From positions 1 through 32,970 of the forward strand of contig JAUWSB010000005.1 of NCBI GenBank assembly GCA_030610255.1: 32,970 bases of DNA, written 5' to 3'. The notes under the pieces were generated by a model. The model had not been told where the DNA came from and made no database searches. It saw only the letters and a list, made by a program, of their open reading frames with translations. Within the stretch, counting starts at the first letter, position 1. Each line of letters opens with the position of its first letter. A program made the position numbers and the translations under genes. This DNA comes from Bacteroidota bacterium. GTDB taxonomy: Bacteria > Bacteroidota > Bacteroidia > Bacteroidales > JADFUO01. Below, piece after piece: positions 1 to 9,771 of this stretch.

Positions 1-705
1 CCTACTCTTAACTCACGTATTGGCGAAGTTTTACAATTTATTAAACAAAAAAAACCTGATGTTCCGGTTGCAGTTTTAACAAACGGGACTTTGTTTTATC
101 AAAAAAAAGTAAGAACGGAATTACTTAATGCTGACCTTGTGCTACCTTCATTGGATGCTGCCACAGATTTAATTTTTCGGAAAATAAACAGACCTTTTTT
201 TAAACTCAATATTCAAGAGTATATACAGGGACTTCAGGATTTCAGGAATGAATATAAAGGTAAAATATGGCTCGAGGTTTTAATTATTCCCGGCTATAAT
301 GACAGCAAAACAGAATTAAAACTGCTTAAGGAAGTTTTTGAAAAAATCCGACCCGACAGCATACAATTAAATACCCTTGACAGACCCGGAGTTATACCTG
401 ATATCAGGGCAGCAACCAAAATAGAATTGCAACAGATAGCAGACTTCTGGAACCTTAATAATGTTGAAATCATTGCAGCAGCTCCTGAGCGAAAAGATAT
501 TAAATCATATCGTGAAGATATTGAAACTGCAATTTTGGAAACAATATTCAGAAGACCATGTACACTCAATGATCTGGCGAAAATTTTAGGATTACATATT
601 AACGAGGTTAATAAATATCTTGATGTATTGGAAGCAGATCATAAGATTAAATCTGTGCGTCAGGAAAGAGGCTTGTTCTATCAAATTAAACATAAACAGA
701 AATAA
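1..705 (+). CDS. Radical SAM family protein, C-terminal part (5' end outside window)
   Basis: The frame is open from base 1 (PTLNSRIGEVLQFIKQKKPDVPVAVLTNGTLFYQ...), so the listed TTG start at 91 is internal. 'VAVLTNGTL', 'LEVLIIPGYNDS' and 'IQLNTLDRPG' are typical of radical SAM proteins; the C-terminus looks winged-helix-like. Confidence 0.75.
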   Translation, partial: PTLNSRIGEVLQFIKQKKPDVPVAVLTNGTLFYQKKVRTELLNADLVLPSLDAATDLIFRKINRPFFKLNIQEYIQGLQDFRNEYKGKIWLEVLIIPGYNDSKTELKLLKEVFEKIRPDSIQLNTLDRPGVIPDIRAATKIELQQIADFWNLNNVEIIAAAPERKDIKSYREDIETAILETIFRRPCTLNDLAKILGLHINEVNKYLDVLEADHKIKSVRQERGLFYQIKHKQK

Positions 706-752
706 AAAATGCATAGAATGGATTCTATTTATAACTGAGATGAAATAAGATA

Positions 753-1280
753 TTATAGTTTAATTCCTTTTTCTTCCAGATATTTTTTAATTGTGTTGTT
801 AGGCAATTTGCTTCCTTTAGATTTTACATTATAAATAAAATAATCGCATTCAGCCTCATTAAGAATTCCTTTTAAAAAAGCTTCAGTAATAAAATCCATA
901 GTAGTAAGATATTTAATATTGTTTTCTTCACAATATAGTTTAATGTCTGATAGATTACTGCTAGCCAATATATCTTTGAAATATCTACAATAGGCCATGC
1001 AAGCACTTTCACCAGAACCAAATGTCCTTTTAAGTTTTGCATATTCCTTTAAAACTTCAAAGTTGCTTGGAAATTCAAGTTCGTGGATTATCTTAAATCG
1101 GATTAGATTTTCAATTTCGGTACGAAGACTTAGAGTAAATATTTCTTTTAAAACATGTTGCAGGATGTAAAGTTTATTTTGGAATATCTTGTTTAAGATT
1201 CCAAGTTGTTCACCTTTACTAAAATGAATAATTACATCAGCATCGAGTAGGATTTTCTTCTTTTTATCAATCTTTATCAC
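753..1280 (-). CDS. PIN-domain-like protein, third gene of the XRE/ImmA-IrrE operon
   Basis: N-terminal 'ILLDADVIIHFSKGEQ' resembles a PIN acidic motif; GTG start overlaps the upstream ImmA/IrrE gene by 14 bp. Confidence 0.6.
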   Translation of the reverse strand: MIKIDKKKKILLDADVIIHFSKGEQLGILNKIFQNKLYILQHVLKEIFTLSLRTEIENLIRFKIIHELEFPSNFEVLKEYAKLKRTFGSGESACMAYCRYFKDILASSNLSDIKLYCEENNIKYLTTMDFITEAFLKGILNEAECDYFIYNVKSKGSKLPNNTIKKYLEEKGIKL

Positions 1281-1992
1281 CGTTATTCATACTATTTAAG
1301 ATATCAATACCGATATCATGCATTAATGAAATATAATGACCCTCGGAAATTTTCTCATTGTCGTAGAGTTGTTTAGCCAGTGTGCCATAGTCGCCAATTA
1401 CAAGGTTATTATTACCCGGTTCATATAGAGTTGTATCGTAGCCATAAGCTTTTGCAGTAGATTTAATATTTAAGCAGTATTCGTCAAATATTTTGGGTGA
1501 AATTAAATTTAATTCCTTTAATCGGAATAAAAGAGCCTTTCTGGAACAGGAAAAATAATTTTCAATCTTTAATATGGTTTGTATGCTTATCTTATCTTTT
1601 TTTATTTCAATATCGGGAATGAGATTAATAATTCCGTCTTCGGGCATTAACATATAGGAAGCAAAAACATCTGCAAAATATTCATTCGTATCTCTCTTGT
1701 TAAATAATCCGGTGCAACAATGATGAGGTTTGAAATTATCATCAAAAAATATATGGTAAAGTTCATGGCATATTGTAAAATGTTGCCTGCCTAAAGAATG
1801 ATTAGCATTTATCAGTATAAACTTTTTACTACCTGCCTTGACAGACATTCCCGAAAAATCATCAGTAAGTTCTTTGAATACTGTAATAATATTAAGCTTA
1901 ATTAATAGGCTTTTTAAACGAATTGGGTCATTGTTGCTAAAACCACACTCATTTCTAAATTCAAATGCTTTTTTCTTAATTGAGAACTCCAT
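1267..1992 (-). CDS. ImmA/IrrE family metallo-endopeptidase (COG2856-like)
   Basis: HExxH motif in 'FTICHELYHIFF', followed by 'NEYFADVFASYMLMPED', characteristic of ImmA/IrrE proteins. Confidence 0.88.
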   Translation of the reverse strand: MEFSIKKKAFEFRNECGFSNNDPIRLKSLLIKLNIITVFKELTDDFSGMSVKAGSKKFILINANHSLGRQHFTICHELYHIFFDDNFKPHHCCTGLFNKRDTNEYFADVFASYMLMPEDGIINLIPDIEIKKDKISIQTILKIENYFSCSRKALLFRLKELNLISPKIFDEYCLNIKSTAKAYGYDTTLYEPGNNNLVIGDYGTLAKQLYDNEKISEGHYISLMHDIGIDILNSMNNGDKD

Positions 1993-2331
1993 CTACTTGT
2001 TCAGTTTTTGCATTTTCAAATAATTTAATACTACTCTTTTAAATGAAGCAATATTTTCCAGGTCTGAAGGTTTCAAATAATCACTACGAAAAGCAAAAGC
2101 CAAATTTACATTTTGGATTTTTTTATCTTCTTCAAGCAATTCATCTAACTCAACTCCAAAAAGATTAGCAAGCTTATTTAGGGCTGTTACAGGAATATAC
2201 CTTTTTCCATTTTCATAATAGCTAATAAGCTCCCGTTTTATATTTAAATAATAAGCTAGTTCATTTTGTGAAAGGCCTAATTTATCTCTAAAATAACGGA
2301 TATTTTTACCGATAATTTGTTTTGATTCCAT
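1993..2331 (-). CDS. XRE-family helix-turn-helix transcriptional regulator
   Basis: 'IGKNIRYFRDKLGLSQNELAYYLNIKRELISYYENGKRYIPVTALNKLANLFGVELDELL' is a canonical HTH_XRE domain. Its stop codon directly abuts the ATG of the ImmA/IrrE gene. Confidence 0.92.
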   Translation of the reverse strand: MESKQIIGKNIRYFRDKLGLSQNELAYYLNIKRELISYYENGKRYIPVTALNKLANLFGVELDELLEEDKKIQNVNLAFAFRSDYLKPSDLENIASFKRVVLNYLKMQKLNK

Positions 2332-2352
2332 TTTCTTAAGATAGGTAAATTT

Positions 2353-2398
2353 TGTTACAAAAGTAATACAATATTTCTAATAACCAAATAATGTAACA
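2353..2398. promoter_or_regulatory. Candidate operator half-sites for XRE autoregulation
   Basis: Inverted heptamers TGTTACA (2353-2359) and TGTAACA (2392-2398) flank and overlap the putative -7 and -33 elements. Confidence 0.35.
2358..2388 (-). promoter_or_regulatory. Bacteroidota-type promoter for the XRE operon (-33 TTTG, -7 TAnnTTTG)
   Basis: Minus strand TTTG (plus 2385-2388), 19-bp spacer, TACTTTTG (plus 2358-2365), upstream of the XRE start at 2331. Confidence 0.5.
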
Positions 2399-2426
2399 TT
2401 TTTTTATTAAAAACCCTGCATAAATA

Positions 2427-2494
2427 ATTGATTTTTTATAAATTTAGAAGAATTCTAAACAAAATGTAAAAGTCAATAATATCAATGCTTTCCA
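2427..2494 (+). repeat. 68-bp direct repeat, copy A
   Basis: Matches 6053-6120 at 66/68 positions; contains the interrupted palindrome TTAGAA-GAA-TTCTAA. Confidence 0.9.
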
Positions 2495-2652
2495 TTAGAT
2501 AATTTGAATAATTAGAATATTTTTCGTAATTTTGGTAAATAAAACTATGAGTATTTGTTTCGTTAAAGAAAACATATTATTAATCAGTGTATTAACAAAA
2601 AACACTGCAATAGACAAAGGCGAAATATAGCGGCATAGTGTAGTATATATTT

Positions 2653-2773
2653 AGAAGTTACCCAACATTAGCCCAACTTGGAAACACGTGAAAAAAGTGT
2701 TCATAACTTCTGTTTGAAAATCAATTTTTGCGATTTTATAACAATTAGATTTTCAAACTACTAAAAAGTAGTT
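2653..2773 (+). other. Hairpin-rich 5' leader upstream of the DUF1566-like gene
   Basis: AGAAGTTA(2653-2660)/TAACTTCT(2704-2711) enclosing AACAC(2683-2687)/GTGTT(2697-2701); GTTTGAAAATC(2712-2722)/GATTTTCAAAC(2748-2758); AACTACT(2756-2762)/AGTAGTT(2767-2773). Confidence 0.45.
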
Positions 2774-2820
2774 ATATATAATAATAGATAGTTATTTACA
2801 AATAAATTAATTTAAGTAAA

Positions 2821-3606
2821 ATGAAAAAATTCAAATTATTATTCGTAGCAATCGCAATGATTGCAGGCTACAGCTTAACAGCACAGGTAAGTATTAACAC
2901 CGATGGCACCGATGCAGATGCTTCGGCCATGCTTGATGTAAAAAGCACCGACAAGGGGCTATTAACCCCGCGTATGACCGAAGCCCAGCGCGATGCAATA
3001 AGCAGCCCCGCCACAGGACTAATGATTTATCAAACCGACGGAACGGCCGGTTTTTATTATTACAATGGCTCGGCTTGGACAGCAAGTGGCAGTACCACAT
3101 ACTCCGTAGGCGACTTTGCCCACGGCGGCATTATATTCTGGGTTGACGAAACAGGACAACACAGTTTAGTTTGTGCAAAAACAGACCAAAGCACTGGGGT
3201 AAGATGGGATGCCGGAACTTATGGACATACGCAAGCTAAAGGAGATGGCCCTTTTTCTGGCGAAATGAACACCGCAATTATTATTGCGGCTCATGTGGCA
3301 ATTGGAGATGATTTTTCAACTTATGCAGCGCGTATCTGTAACGAGTTGCAAATTACCGAAGGCGGAAAAACCTATGGCGATTGGTATTTACCATCAAAAG
3401 AAGAATTAAACCTGATGTACCTTAACAAAGCAACCATTGATGCAACAGCAGTGGCAAATAGTGGAAGTGCTTTTGCTAGTGCCGTCTATTGGAGTTCTAC
3501 AGAGTACTATAGCAACTATGCATGGAGACAGTACTTCGGCAATGGCATTCAGGATTACATCTATAAGAACGACACCTACAGGGTGCGTGCAGTTCGGGCT
3601 TTTTAA
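2821..3606 (+). CDS. Secreted DUF1566/Fib_succ_major-type protein with a DGR variable-region-like C-terminus
   Basis: Signal peptide 'MKKFKLLFVAIAMIAGYSLTAQ'; 'GDFAHGGIIFWVDETGQHSLVCA', 'YGDWYLPSKEELNLMY' and C-terminal 'YWSSTEYYSNYAWRQYFGNGIQDYIYKNDTYRVRAVRAF'. Confidence 0.85.
   Translation: MKKFKLLFVAIAMIAGYSLTAQVSINTDGTDADASAMLDVKSTDKGLLTPRMTEAQRDAISSPATGLMIYQTDGTAGFYYYNGSAWTASGSTTYSVGDFAHGGIIFWVDETGQHSLVCAKTDQSTGVRWDAGTYGHTQAKGDGPFSGEMNTAIIIAAHVAIGDDFSTYAARICNELQITEGGKTYGDWYLPSKEELNLMYLNKATIDATAVANSGSAFASAVYWSSTEYYSNYAWRQYFGNGIQDYIYKNDTYRVRAVRAF
3491..3606 (+). other. Candidate DGR variable region (VR)
   Basis: Clustered codons TAC/TAT/AGC/AAC/GGC/GAT/ATC at positions that would be AAC/AAT in a template repeat, followed by the GC-rich invariant end AGGGTGCGTGCAGTTCGGGC. 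Confidence 0.5.
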
Positions 3607-3626
3607 CAATTTATCTATTTAACTAT

Positions 3627-5486
3627 TTAATAAATAATCATTCTTTTAGAACGAACTTCCTTTCCGGCAGTGAGGTTTACTACGAATATCCCTTTACCAA
3701 CTTCTTTACCGGAATAGTCCTTTCCATCCCATGAAATCACATGCCGGCCTGCTTTAAAAGTGTTATCTGCCAGTGATATAATTTTCTTTCCAAACATTCC
3801 ATAGATGTCGATAATCACATGGGACGATTCAGGCAATTGAAAAGAAATGTATGTTGAATGGCTGAATGGATTGGGGAAGTTCTGAAAAAGTACGAGTCCG
3901 TTTTCATCATGTCTATCCATTGAAGGGTAAATCCCGACGTACTGAGCAGAGAGGTCTTTGTCCATTATTGCAATAAAGGCATCATAATTGCCATTAAAGG
4001 ATTCATCATATGCTCCCGGGGTAGTTGGAAAATCATTAGAAGAGGCATTTCCTGCAACAATAATATTATCATCTTCCGAAAATATGAGTTCAAGCCCGAA
4101 ATCATAAAAATAACCACCAAGAAAAGTTGAAGCGTTTAATTTGCTAAGGTCATCGCTCATTCTTGAAATATATACATCTGTTTCTCCATTAAAGCTGGTA
4201 TCATATGAATGCGCTGTCATAGGGAAATCCTCTCCGCCTGCCATCCCGGTAATAAATACATCACCACTGGATGCATCATACAGTATATCCCGGCATTCAT
4301 CCCAGTCGCTGCTTCCGAGGAAGGTACAAGCAATTAGATTCTCAAGTTTAGAGTCTAAAAGTCCGGCATACCCGTCATAAATACCAAAATTGAAACTTGT
4401 ATCAAATGCTCCTGATGTATATGGAAAGTTATTGGAATCTGTAAAACCGCATACATAAATATTTCCTGTACTATCGAAGTCCATTGAAAAGGCATTGTCA
4501 TGGTGATTACCTCCAATAAAAGTGGATGCCAATAAAGTATCCAGATCATTGCCAAATATAGAGATGTAAGCATCACTATGTCCGTTGAATGTAGGGTCAT
4601 ATGCATTAGGTGTAGCATGAAAGTCAGGTGACCCGGTATTACCGCATATGCATATATTATTATCACGGTCAATGATCATATCAATTACCTGTTCCCAGGC
4701 AGATCCGCCAAAATAGGTTGATGAAAGTAGTTCCGACAAATCTTCCGATAGTTTTGAAATGAATACGTCGTTGGCATTATCCATGCCCCCTGTTGTACTG
4801 TAAGCATTTGGCGTTACAGGAAAATCTCCTGATAGTGTTCCTCCTGTAACAATGATATTTCCATTGGTATCAATGGCCATTCTGACATGGTGGAAGCGTT
4901 CAGATAATGAACCTCCAAGAAATGTTGAAGCCAGCAGTTCATCCAGGTCCGGACTAAAGATTGAAATGAAGATATCCCCTTGTCCGTATTCGTTATCATT
5001 ATAGGTCTGGTCGTAAGTTCCCTCTGTGGTTGGAAAATCAGTAGAGGTGGTAAAACCGGTAATACAAATATTCCCGTTTTCGTCAATTACGATTGATGAA
5101 GCACAGTCCTCGTTTGATCCTCCGATATAAGTAGAAGCAATCAGATATGACAAAGTAGGATCAAGCCTGGCAACGAATGACTCGGATGGTCCGCCTGCAT
5201 AATTAGGTTGATATGTCCCTGGTGTGACAGGGAAGTCGTTAGATTCTGTCGCGCCACAGATGTAGATATCCCCGTTTGGATGCATGACAAATCCAAGTTG
5301 GTCAATATCTGTAACGAATAATTCTCCCGATCCTCCACCAAGGAAAGTGGAAAAAAACAGGGCTTTGGAAGAGGACAATGATTGCGAATAAGTTTTATCG
5401 CAGAATAAGTAAACCAACATCAGTAAAGAAGTAAAGAATAAAATCTTTCTAAAATACATTTTCAAGAGTAAATGATGTGTATCCAT
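3627..5486 (-). CDS. SBBP-repeat beta-propeller protein with T9SS C-terminal sorting domain
   Basis: Repeated 'LLASTFLGGS...D...I.DxNGNIxxxGxTxSxDFPxTPxAYD' units; C-terminus 'LFQNFPNPFSHSTYISFQLPESSHVIIDIYGMFGKKI...GIFVVNLTAGKEVRSKRMIIY'. Confidence 0.88.
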   Translation of the reverse strand: MDTHHLLLKMYFRKILFFTSLLMLVYLFCDKTYSQSLSSSKALFFSTFLGGGSGELFVTDIDQLGFVMHPNGDIYICGATESNDFPVTPGTYQPNYAGGPSESFVARLDPTLSYLIASTYIGGSNEDCASSIVIDENGNICITGFTTSTDFPTTEGTYDQTYNDNEYGQGDIFISIFSPDLDELLASTFLGGSLSERFHHVRMAIDTNGNIIVTGGTLSGDFPVTPNAYSTTGGMDNANDVFISKLSEDLSELLSSTYFGGSAWEQVIDMIIDRDNNICICGNTGSPDFHATPNAYDPTFNGHSDAYISIFGNDLDTLLASTFIGGNHHDNAFSMDFDSTGNIYVCGFTDSNNFPYTSGAFDTSFNFGIYDGYAGLLDSKLENLIACTFLGSSDWDECRDILYDASSGDVFITGMAGGEDFPMTAHSYDTSFNGETDVYISRMSDDLSKLNASTFLGGYFYDFGLELIFSEDDNIIVAGNASSNDFPTTPGAYDESFNGNYDAFIAIMDKDLSAQYVGIYPSMDRHDENGLVLFQNFPNPFSHSTYISFQLPESSHVIIDIYGMFGKKIISLADNTFKAGRHVISWDGKDYSGKEVGKGIFVVNLTAGKEVRSKRMIIY

Positions 5487-5658
5487 AATAGAATTAGTTT
5501 AAGGGCACCACGAAAAACTATTTTTTCAAATGCCATTGTTTGAAACAAATGTATGTAATTTCTTTATAAAAACCTAATTACACCCTCTCTCTTCAAGGGT
5601 CTATTTAATTGAGAATGGTTGTATGATATCAATTTATTTTTTACCAAATTATATACAA

Positions 5659-6069
5659 TTAGTTAATAGAGATAAACTTTTTAGTGATTAAGAAGCTATT
5701 CTCAAATTCAATATTGACAAAGTAAATGCCTTTTGAAAGTTCTTTCGTACTGATATTTATCCTGTTCAAACCTTTTTCCAGTTTTTGAACATATGAGTCA
5801 ATTACTTTCCCTGTAATAGAATATGACGTAACTTTCACAATTTCTTCTTCTGTAACAGTTATTTCAATGTTGGCATAGTTATTTGCAGGATTTGGAAATA
5901 CGTCACTTAAGAAACGAATATTTTCAGGAAGATCATCATATATCCCCATCACAATTTCATCATCATTAATTACGAAACTTATACCATCAATTGAGGGTTT
6001 ACTTATTAAATAATAATCCCTGCTCTCTCTTCTTTTTACATAACTGAATACTATTGATTTTTTGTAAAT
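5659..6069 (-). pseudogene. 5'-truncated T9SS C-terminal sorting-domain remnant
   Basis: Frame is open from ~6069 (IYKKSIVFSYVKRRESRDYYLISKPSIDGISFVINDDEIVMGIYDDLPENIRFLSDVFPNPANN...). There is no passenger domain, and the upstream stop (6070-6072) lies inside direct repeat copy B. Confidence 0.6.
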
Positions 6070-6120
6070 TTAGAAGAATTCTAAACAAAAGGTAAAAGTC
6101 AATAATATCAATGCTTTCCA
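6053..6120 (+). repeat. 68-bp direct repeat, copy B
   Basis: 66/68 identical to 2427-2494 (differences at 2438/6064 and 2465/6091). Confidence 0.9.
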
Positions 6121-6302
6121 ATGATTTTATTTTTTATTTATTATTAGCATGTTTGTAATCTATTGTAAACCAATAAATTTAAACTATAAAAAAATTAAAT
6201 TAAAATATTTAAGAGTTTAATATTTGTTTATAATTTTGCCACCATTAAGATTTAAGATTATAGATTTGAGATTTGAGATTGAATAAGTGCTAATAAATAC
6301 CA

Positions 6303-6410
6303 ATTATACTAATTCTTAACAGGTTTGCGAAGTAAAGCTGTTTAGAAGTAGTTATGCGTGCTGAATAGACCTTTAAGGTTTTTTACATTTCTATTCAGCA
6401 TTAGTATAAT
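6303..6410 (+). ncRNA. Candidate structured leader RNA upstream of rnfB (three-way-junction-like)
   Basis: P1 ATTATACTAAT(6303-6313)/ATTAGTATAAT(6400-6410); P2 AACAG-G-TTT...AAA-G-CTGTT (6318-6342); P3 GCTGAATAGA(6360-6369)/TCTATTCAGC(6390-6399). Confidence 0.45.
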
Positions 6411-6446
6411 AAAGATAAATTTAAAATTTAAACAAGTAATAATAAG

Positions 6447-7388
6447 GTGAATGATATAGTAATTTATGCAGTAATTTCTTTAAGTGCTATAGGTTTAGCT
6501 GCTGCGGTTATTTTGTTTTTTATTGCCAAAAAGTTCAAAGTTATTGAAGACCCGAAGATTGATATTGTTGAGGAAGTTTTGCCGTCGGCTAATTGCGGTG
6601 GATGTGGTTTTCCGGGTTGCAGAAATTTTGCAGAGGCATTGGTTAATAAAAGTAATAAGGATAAAAATATTGAAGGATTAAATTGCCCTGTCGGAGGCAA
6701 TGAGGTTATGAGCAAAGTTGCAGAAATACTTGGTTTGGAAGCTGAGGAAAAAGAACCGATGGTTGCAGTGTTACGCTGTTCAGGGTCAAAAGCAAATGCC
6801 CCGAAAAAAGTTAATTACGACGGACCTGCAACATGTGTATTTGCAAATAATTTATATGCGGGCGAAAATGGCTGCCCTTATGGTTGCCTGGGATTGGGAG
6901 ATTGTGTTGTTGCCTGTAAGTTTGATGCAATGTATATGGACAAAGAAACCGGTTTGCCTGTGATAATTGAGGAAAAATGCGTTGCTTGCGGTGCTTGTGT
7001 TGAAGCTTGCCCGCGAAATATTATTGAACTCAGGAATGTTGGTAAAAAAAGCAGGCGGATTTTTGTATCATGTATCAATGAAGAAAAAGGTGGAGTAGCA
7101 AGAAAAAATTGCAAGGTGGCATGTATCGGTTGTAGTAAATGTTATAATGTATGCAAGTTTGATGCTATAACCATGAAGAACAACCTTGCATACATTGATT
7201 TTGAAAAATGTAAGCTTTGTAGAAAATGTGTTGAAGAATGTCCGACAGGAGCTATCCATGAGCTGAATTTTCCACCGAGAAAACCAAAACCGGAAAAAGT
7301 TATTGAAAAGCAAAAAACCGAAACAGTATCAACTGAAGCTAAAGTTGTTGATAATAAACCGGAAAAAGATTTAAATACAGGAGGATAA
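6447..7388 (+). CDS. rnfB: Ion-translocating ferredoxin:NAD+ oxidoreductase complex subunit B
   Basis: N-terminal TM helix, 'LPSANCGGCGFPGCRNFAEAL' Fe-S motif, multiple CxxCxxCxxxC ferredoxin motifs; first gene of an rnf operon. Confidence 0.95.
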   Translation: MNDIVIYAVISLSAIGLAAAVILFFIAKKFKVIEDPKIDIVEEVLPSANCGGCGFPGCRNFAEALVNKSNKDKNIEGLNCPVGGNEVMSKVAEILGLEAEEKEPMVAVLRCSGSKANAPKKVNYDGPATCVFANNLYAGENGCPYGCLGLGDCVVACKFDAMYMDKETGLPVIIEEKCVACGACVEACPRNIIELRNVGKKSRRIFVSCINEEKGGVARKNCKVACIGCSKCYNVCKFDAITMKNNLAYIDFEKCKLCRKCVEECPTGAIHELNFPPRKPKPEKVIEKQKTETVSTEAKVVDNKPEKDLNTGG

Positions 7389-7393
7389 TAATA

Positions 7394-8725
7394 TTGAAAA
7401 CATTTAAATTAGGTGGGGTTCACCCTGCAGAAAATAAATTATCAAATAACAGCCCTATTCAGGTTCTTCCTATTCCGAAGCAGGTTTTTATTCCTGTTTC
7501 CCAAAGTTTAGGAGCCCCTTCAAAGCCGGTAGTAAACAAAGGTGACCAGGTTAAAGTTGGGCAGTTGATTGCCAAAGGTGAGGCATTTATTTCGTCAAAT
7601 ATACATTCATCCGTTTCAGGAAAAGTTTTAAAAATTGATAATATAACCGATCAAAGTGATTATCCAAAACAGACAATTTTTATTAATGTTGAGGGTGATG
7701 AATGGGACGAAAACATTGATAAATCAGATAAAGTAAAAAGAGAAATTACTTTATCAAAGGAAGAAATTATCAAGAAAATCCATGAAATGGGAATTGTTGG
7801 ATTAGGTGGGGCTGCTTTTCCATCGCATGTTAAATTAATGGTTCCTAAAGGTAAAAAAGCCAATCTGCTAATAATTAACGGAGTAGAATGTGAACCGTAT
7901 CTTACTTCCGATTATCGTTTAATGTTGGAAAAAGGTGAAGAAATTTTAATCGGGGCAACAATTTTAATGAAAGGTCTTGGTGTTAACAAAGCATTTATCG
8001 GTATTGAAAATAATAAGCCGGATGCTATTAAACATCTCACAAATTTGGCAAAAGATTTTGAAGGGATAGAAGTATTTTCTTTAAAAGTAAAATACCCGCA
8101 GGGAGGTGAAAAGCAACTTATCAAAGCATTGACAAACCGTGAAGTTCCTTCCGGAAAGCTCCCTGTTGAAGTTGGATGTGTTGTTAATAATGTTGGAACG
8201 GCTTTCGCTGTTTACGAAGCAGTACAAAAAAATAAACCTTTGTTTGAAAGAGTTGTTACAGTTACCGGAAAATCCATAAAAAACCCATCAAACTTTTTGG
8301 TAAGAATAGGCACACCTTCATCAGAATTAGTTGAAAAAGCCGGCGGACTTCCTGATGATACGGGAAAAATTATTAGTGGTGGCCCTATGATGGGAAAGGC
8401 ATTGAATATGATTGATGTTCCTATTGTAAAAGGTTCATCAGGAGTATTATTAATTGAAGATTCGGAAACAGAAAGGATGGCTGTAAAAAATTGCATTCGT
8501 TGTGCCAATTGTATTTCAGTTTGTCCCATGGGTTTAGAGCCTGTTCTTTTAGCACAATATTCTGAGAAAGAAATGTTTGAAAATGCTGAGAAGGAAAACA
8601 TTCTGGATTGTATGGAATGTGGTTCCTGTCAATATACATGCCCTTCCGGCAGACCATTGCTGGATTATATCAGATTAGGAAAATTTAAAGTTGGTGAAAT
8701 AATTAGAAACAGAGGAAAAAAATAG
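7394..8725 (+). CDS. rnfC: Rnf complex subunit C
   Basis: 'FKLGGVHPAENK', 'GLGGAAFPSHVKL', 'LIINGVECEPYLTSDYRLMLE', 'CIRCANCISVCPMGL', 'CMECGSCQYTCPS'; TTG start. Confidence 0.96.
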   Translation: MKTFKLGGVHPAENKLSNNSPIQVLPIPKQVFIPVSQSLGAPSKPVVNKGDQVKVGQLIAKGEAFISSNIHSSVSGKVLKIDNITDQSDYPKQTIFINVEGDEWDENIDKSDKVKREITLSKEEIIKKIHEMGIVGLGGAAFPSHVKLMVPKGKKANLLIINGVECEPYLTSDYRLMLEKGEEILIGATILMKGLGVNKAFIGIENNKPDAIKHLTNLAKDFEGIEVFSLKVKYPQGGEKQLIKALTNREVPSGKLPVEVGCVVNNVGTAFAVYEAVQKNKPLFERVVTVTGKSIKNPSNFLVRIGTPSSELVEKAGGLPDDTGKIISGGPMMGKALNMIDVPIVKGSSGVLLIEDSETERMAVKNCIRCANCISVCPMGLEPVLLAQYSEKEMFENAEKENILDCMECGSCQYTCPSGRPLLDYIRLGKFKVGEIIRNRGKK

Positions 8726-8730
8726 CATAT

Positions 8731-9771
8731 ATGAACTTACTTACGGTTTCGGGTTCTCCTCACATACATGGAGATAATTCAATTAAAAAAATTATGTATG
8801 GCGTTGTTTTTGCCATGATCCCAGCAATACTTATATCAGTTTACTTTTTTGGCTTGGATGCAGTTAAAGTATTACTGATTTCAGTTATTGCCTGTATGTT
8901 TTTTGAATGGGCTATTCAAAAATTTTTAATAAAAGGTCCCTTAACTATTAATGATGGCTCTGCATTGGTTACAGGTATTTTACTGGCATTCAATGTTCCG
9001 GGCAATTTACCGGTATGGATTATTATTATCGGAGCATTTGTTTCAATTGGCATTGCCAAGATGTCGTTTGGAGGTTTGGGAAAAAATCCTTTTAACCCTG
9101 CATTGGTAGGACGTGTTTTCCTTTTGATTTCTTTCCCTGTTCAGATGACAAGCTGGCCCAAACCGAATCCTTTATTTGCAAGAAAAGTGCTTGATGCAAT
9201 TACAGGACCTACACCTCTTGGAAATTTAAAAGAAGAATTGAAAGGAGGCAGAACCGTTCAGGATATTCTTGAACATGGCACTAAAATGATTGTTGACGGA
9301 AAGGAAGTGTTGTATCAGATTCCGGATTATGCTCAGGAACTATTAGGTAATATGGGTGGCTCCCTTGGTGAAATCTCGGCAGTTGCATTGATTATTGGTG
9401 CTATATATATGTTATGCAGAAAAATCATTACATGGCAAATACCTGTTGCATATCTGGGTTCTGTAATTGTTTTTACAGGAATTCTTTGGATTATTGATCC
9501 GAATATTTATATAAATCCGCTTTTTCATCTGGTTACAGGTGGTTTGATACTTGGAGTATTTTTTATGGCAACAGATATGGTATCAACACCAATGTCGTCA
9601 AAAGGGCAATTAATATTTGGATTGGGATGTGGAGTAATAACAGTAATTATTCGTGTTTGGGGAGCATACCCTGAAGGAGTGTCTTTTGCAATTTTGATAA
9701 TGAATGCATTTGCACCATTAATTAACAAAGGTTTTAAACCTAAAAGATTTGGAGAAACATTAAAAATCTAA
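8731..9771 (+). CDS. rnfD: Rnf complex subunit D
   Basis: 'VSGSPHIHGDNSIKKIMYGVV', 'ITGPTPLGN', 'FFMATDMVSTPMSSKGQLIFGLGCGVITVIIR'; NqrB/RnfD family. Confidence 0.95.
   Translation: MNLLTVSGSPHIHGDNSIKKIMYGVVFAMIPAILISVYFFGLDAVKVLLISVIACMFFEWAIQKFLIKGPLTINDGSALVTGILLAFNVPGNLPVWIIIIGAFVSIGIAKMSFGGLGKNPFNPALVGRVFLLISFPVQMTSWPKPNPLFARKVLDAITGPTPLGNLKEELKGGRTVQDILEHGTKMIVDGKEVLYQIPDYAQELLGNMGGSLGEISAVALIIGAIYMLCRKIITWQIPVAYLGSVIVFTGILWIIDPNIYINPLFHLVTGGLILGVFFMATDMVSTPMSSKGQLIFGLGCGVITVIIRVWGAYPEGVSFAILIMNAFAPLINKGFKPKRFGETLKI

Follow-up and report, generated by a model that had tools for sequence, protein, structure and literature searches.

How does a gene that bears the marks of a DGR target come to stand on a bacterial chromosome with no reverse transcriptase (RT) beside it? 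This question is raised by the open reading frame at 2821-3606 of the window (the whole 32,970-nucleotide stretch of DNA analysed here), which the original prediction, made from the sequence alone, had described as an orphan target whose C-terminal variable repeat (VR) was either diversified in trans from a remote locus or a fossil. Here we combine comparisons with complete cassettes of related Bacteroidota, searches of the host genome and its congener, and codon analysis across the wider family, and find it likely that the gene is an orphaned, frozen target that lost its machinery, rather than one diversified in trans. The features on which this reading draws are collected in Table 1.

Table 1. 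Positions of the orphan target, its variable repeat and neighbouring features in the window
Feature	Position	Strand	Basis or remark
Orphan DGR variable protein, 261 aa	2821-3606	+	ORF translation, Pfam, homologs, AlphaFold model
Variable repeat (VR)	3472-3603	+	Upstream edge is the start of TR/VR homology in cassettes
Stretch with TR-AAY-equivalent codons	3505-3579	+	15/15 NNY
IMH-like GC-rich 3' end, GTGCGTGCAGTTCGG	3583-3597	+	Common to L082 cassette TR and VR except one silent A/T (3591)
AT-rich post-stop linker, CAATTTATCTATTTAACTATTTAA	3607-3630	+	Conserved in cassettes
Convergent SBBP beta-propeller-repeat gene with T9SS sorting domain	3627-5486	-	Occupies the place of Avd-TR-RT in cassettes
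Stretch without counterpart at the syntenic locus in congener G001	700-6423		Locus comparison
Direct repeat, left copy, 68 nt	2427-2494	+	97% to 6053-6120; brackets orphan and SBBP genes
Direct repeat, right copy	6053-6120	+	Repeat comparison

The reading frame and its C-terminus were exactly as first described. Its product joins a signal-peptide-like start and a Bacteroidota surface-protein N-terminal region (residues 1-90) to an Lcl_C / C-type-lectin-like domain (residues about 93-261). Pfam assigns residues 121-259 to Lcl_C (PF07603, formerly DUF1566; E=2.3e-13), a domain previously recorded among DGR targets (PMC4159848). An AlphaFold model, with an input alignment of 31 sequences, has pLDDT mostly above 90 across the C-terminal domain, and both Pfam and the model place the VR inside this C-type-lectin-type domain. 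The top PDB match of the modelled domain was the C-terminal domain of Legionella pneumophila Lcl (8q4e; Foldseek E=1.1e-8, TM-score 0.81 by target length), followed by a Bacteroides fimbrial protein and then by weak C-type lectins. The Legionella domain shares Pfam family and fold with the window protein at 28% identity, and the latter has no collagen-like repeats. We take the product to be a secreted or surface lectin-fold protein that would bind a ligand.

Adenine-directed differences in the variable repeat

Complete cassettes with homologous targets, ordered target, bAvd, TR and RT, were identified at six loci of other Bacteroidota genomes (L079, L081, L082, L093, L100 and L120) and in the order-level relatives G083 and G015. 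In L079, L081, L082 and G083 the mismatches between VR and TR fall at template adenines only, with none elsewhere in the last 110 nt. Aligned over 117 nt with the L082 TR (YWSSTENNNNNAWKQNFDNGNQNNNNKNNTNRVRAVRDF), the window VR (YWSSTEYYSNYAWRQYFGNGIQDYIYKNDTYRVRAVRAF) differs at 16 of 47 template adenines as against 5 of 70 other sites (Fisher p=2.7e-4), and the same comparison for control DNA upstream of the VR gives 22/119 adenine and 61/271 non-adenine sites, without adenine bias. All 15 amino-acid changes relative to this TR can be reached via template-adenine changes alone. Each of the five non-adenine differences is either silent or in the third position of a changed codon, and since the reference TR belongs to another genus than the host of the window, they may represent either drift of that TR or decay in the window.

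The variable codons had been proposed to lie close to AAC or AAT, and this was borne out: each of the 15 columns that hold AAY in the TRs of relatives is NNY in the window (residues 229-233, 238, 241, 243, 245-248, 250, 251 and 253). Two further codons, AGA (residue 236) and AGG (residue 254), are unfit for an AAY origin; the L082 TR has AAA and AGG there, which explains both. The IMH-type end, also foreseen, was recovered (Table 1). Furthermore, silent identity between the window and the L082 cassette rises from 54/101 upstream of the VR to 16/18 in its conserved codons (p=0.004), which suggests that templating of the VR came later than the divergence of the rest of the gene, or that the VR is kept at the DNA level.

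The adenine-biased mismatches, the full set of adenine-explained changes and the unbiased upstream DNA together argue that the VR sequence stems from a DGR of the L082-type cassette family, so that, judged by sequence comparison, its DGR origin appears near certain. An ordinary Lcl_C/DUF1566 adhesin without DGR history, its variable codons being the product of normal divergence, could be proposed because Lcl_C occurs in proteins here unlinked to DGRs, Legionella Lcl among them, and because the amino acids used partly force NNY codons; we regard this as very improbable, given that a real TR accounts for every amino-acid difference through its adenines, that the mismatch bias is restricted to the VR, and that across the family's orphans the TR-AAY columns are NNY in 79% of cases as against 51% upstream for the same amino acids in the same genes (p about 1e-41).

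Undetected machinery and missing target-site hairpin

The genome-wide search agreed with the orphan status first assigned to the gene, as neither an RT nor a TR was found in the assembled window genome (G000; 77% complete, 237 contigs). RVT_1 gave no matches in this assembly and a close-homolog search found no DGR RT, while an 81-nt adenine-permissive TR pattern allowing up to 3 mismatches and a TR pseudo-peptide search each returned the VR itself only. A BLAST search for other copies of the VR in the same genome yielded, beyond the VR itself, AT-rich chance matches only, and Fib_succ-type paralogs from this genome and its congeners (L162-L167) proved to be diverged and not TRs of the window VR. 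No cassette bAvd adjoins the gene and none was recognised elsewhere in the assembled genome, as judged with a narrower bAvd model because PF05635 is too broad. Profile matches to PF22296/PF05635 at C139 and C82 were assigned to the four-helix family in its wider sense; the C139 gene sits among ferredoxin reductase/glutamate synthase-type genes in an RT-free neighbourhood and has a counterpart in the congener. An RT was likewise not found in the congener G001 (92% complete). Beyond these genomes, DGR-like RTs occur in viral contigs (best 59% identical) and plasmids (38%), and the viral and plasmid searches gave no sufficiently close carrier as a source for the window's C-terminal domain. Since the window genome is 77% complete, the absence of RT and TR is suggestive only, a DGR could possibly lie within the unassembled 23%, and the proposal that a complete genome lacking both would refute the original prediction applies only in part.

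The 3' flank of the gene provides a second line of evidence. Past the post-stop linker, all 10 of 10 cassette targets carry a hairpin of the form (A)CCGC-loop-GCGG(T), 26-33 nt past the first base of the stop codon (CCGC..GCGG sought within 80 nt). The corresponding element, (A)CCGCGAAGCGG(T), expected at about 3630-3641, is missing from the window, where the sequence diverges at its expected start. The hairpin is kept in just 2 of 32 orphans from genomes in which such an RT was not seen (p=4e-8 against the cassettes). In phage BPP-1 a hairpin at the equivalent place is needed for efficient retrohoming, its loss reducing homing rather than abolishing it (PMC3240598), and its conservation suggests a similar requirement in the Bacteroidota cassette family; because a T-run comes next, the element could alternatively be a terminator. 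Because RT, TR and cassette Avd went undetected and the hairpin is missing, rewriting of the VR has probably ceased, and diversification of the gene would have stopped.

Locus and acquisition of the gene

A second copy of the locus is provided by a 4149-bp contig (L075, JAUVUS010000321.1), which matches window 1-3931 at 99.67% identity and differs by 13 SNPs over these 3931 bp. Three of these lie inside the gene (2961, 3213 and 3591) and leave the protein unchanged; between these two assemblies, the only ones compared, the VR amino acids and all adenine-type codons are identical. The MAG that holds this contig (CSMAG_798) was rejected as an RT-less sister genome, its Rnf genes being just 66-70% identical and the MAG carrying a separate copy of the first gene in the window. 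Given this distance, the contig was probably misbinned from the species of the window, and it was used solely as a second copy.

In the congener G001, sequences matching window 1-699 (94%) and 6424-9771 (97%) flank a gap of about 1.65 kb, which carries a REP-type-transposase-like ORF in place of the window's 5' insert (Table 1). At the site corresponding to the 68-nt direct repeats G001 has a single 34-nt core. Also within the insert lie a MITE-like repeat of about 105 nt (6304-6410) with terminal inverted repeats ATTATACTAAT...ATTAGTATAAT, present in dozens of copies in congener genomes, and a single minus-strand cluster (753-2331), likewise missing at the congener site, that comprises an HTH gene (PF01381), an IrrE/M78 peptidase-like gene and a 175-aa ORF and is antitoxin- or phage-repressor-like. 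Rfam gave no matches in window 600-6500.

The gene had been noted as more GC-rich than its neighbours, and its GC content is indeed 45.5% as against 32.8% for the window. The separate acquisition suggested on that basis is supported by this difference, by the insert-free locus of the congener and by the matching architecture of a related cassette target, and the gene would have arrived by horizontal transfer. Among full-length relatives the closest is L076 (about 70%), where a bAvd follows directly downstream. This suggests a cassette origin for the entire target gene and not for the C-terminus alone; the cassette status of L076 depends on this bAvd, which is truncated at the contig end.

In the scenario that we favour, a DGR belonging to the Bacteroidota cassette family (target, bAvd, TR, RT) would have hypermutated an Lcl_C lectin-type target, which then came to stand alone at a variable site of the chromosome; the cut in its 3' flank would fall within the target-recognition region, before the hairpin. 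The VR would since have evolved like an ordinary gene, and one frozen binding surface would be retained on the secreted or surface lectin-fold protein.

Orphaned targets across the family and in other systems

Among the relatives of the gene, cassettes are vastly outnumbered by orphans, defined as loci in whose retrieved flanks an RT was not seen, some of these loci lying near contig ends (L080, with a bAvd-like start at its contig end, was dropped from the no-RT set). Counting amino acids free in the third base, the 15 TR-AAY columns have C or T there in 57/57 cases in cassettes and 461/581 in orphans. Across orphans, VRs that conserve their silent sites better also retain more NNY codons (rho 0.69, n=85; the p-value is indicative only, since the sequences are related). 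Among orphans of the family the DGR codon signature thus decays by degrees, and the window VR, with all its NNY codons and its high silent conservation, is among the freshest.

A pair of cassettes 98% identical upstream has 0/15 variable residues in common. Several orphan pairs share 13-15 of them, namely L087/L088 (13/15), L136/L137 (15/15) and the window with L075; the close orphan pair L139/L141 shares one, and the frozen state is therefore not true of every locus labelled an orphan. L087 and L088 come from different genomes, which suggests transfer of a frozen variant. An RT is also missing from many other carrier genomes, including the isolates Gelidibacter japonicus and Polaribacter sp. 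MSW5. Possible decay was seen at further loci: L257 (G099:C18) encodes a 550-aa cassette-type target on the minus strand, with an upstream gene of the same kind as in DGR cassettes, and looks like a decayed DGR locus in a genome where no DGR RT was found, and in-frame stops inside the DGR RT matches L181 (G117:C5), L179 (G105:C29), L185 (G130:C1) and L193 (G083:C100) possibly mark decaying cassettes.

The freshness of the window VR also fits recent or occasional diversification. It could accordingly be an active remote target, rewritten in trans by a DGR carried in unassembled genomic sequence or by an extrachromosomal element, a reading helped by the incompleteness of the genome, by the close match of the VR to the family TR at silent sites, by related orphans whose genomes encode a DGR RT at another locus (L106, L107, L113 and L116) and by remote targets reported in Treponema denticola (PMC4891356). 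We consider this unlikely. Apart from the absence of an RT from both the assembly and the more complete congener, the window lacks the hairpin found in every cassette target, its VR amino acids are the same in two assemblies, and orphans with an RT elsewhere are no fresher than those without (NNY 0.84 in both groups, the former being 7 sequences only). The DGR origin implied by the original prediction stands; of the two mechanisms that it offered, a remote target and a fossil, the second is favoured because no RT, TR or cassette Avd was found in the assembled genome, the hairpin is gone and the VR amino acids are identical in both copies.

Contained within the frozen-target explanation is a more specific variant, to which we give appreciably less credence, in which the gene arrived already frozen, having long been cassette-free and moving between genomes alone. 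The excess of orphans over cassettes, the alike VRs of orphan pairs from different genomes and the position of the gene within a stretch missing from the congener are in keeping with it; against it, a near-identical donor copy was not found outside the species of the window, and the VR silent sites are far better kept than those upstream, which suggests fairly late templating in the lineage.

Orphan DGR targets as such are already known from Treponema denticola and nanoarchaea. T. denticola isolates without a core DGR hold VR-bearing targets with adenine-site-restricted differences, read as leftovers of a lost DGR (PMC4891356), and the window resembles them in each respect, with RT and TR not found in its genome. 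Those orphans belong to a different phylum and target family and were compared within one species, whereas here a single-species copy stands beside many Bacteroidota orphans. Nanoarchaeal partial DGRs consist of target, VR and cis elements without an RT, for which fossil or remote readings were proposed (PMC4372165). They share with the window an adenine-type VR history and the lack of a local RT, but the nanoarchaeal genome has other DGRs and its cis elements are described as kept, while in the window genome an RT was not found and the hairpin is lost. Also close are the Bacteroidota Lcl_C/DUF1566 cassettes themselves (such as L082, L079 and L081), whose domain is about 80% identical over window residues 93-261, with equal VR placement, IMH-like 3' end and post-stop linker; unlike them, the window has no bAvd, TR, RT or post-VR hairpin, and its VR shows a few silent departures from the family TR.

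DGR surveys are anchored on the RT and, as they state, miss targets distant from it (PMC8144416). The present analysis contributes a test, based on codons and cis elements, by which orphans can be ordered according to their decay. With NNY at TR-AAY columns, silent VR conservation and the post-VR hairpin taken together, orphaned targets can be recognised without an RT, and the frequency with which DGR products are fixed and outlast their machine becomes testable. More tentatively, the Bacteroidota cassettes could be factories shedding lectin variants that are passed between genomes as frozen single genes, with the window gene a young member of this pool. If so, orphans would carry a clock, running from hairpin loss through silent VR drift to the loss of NNY codons.
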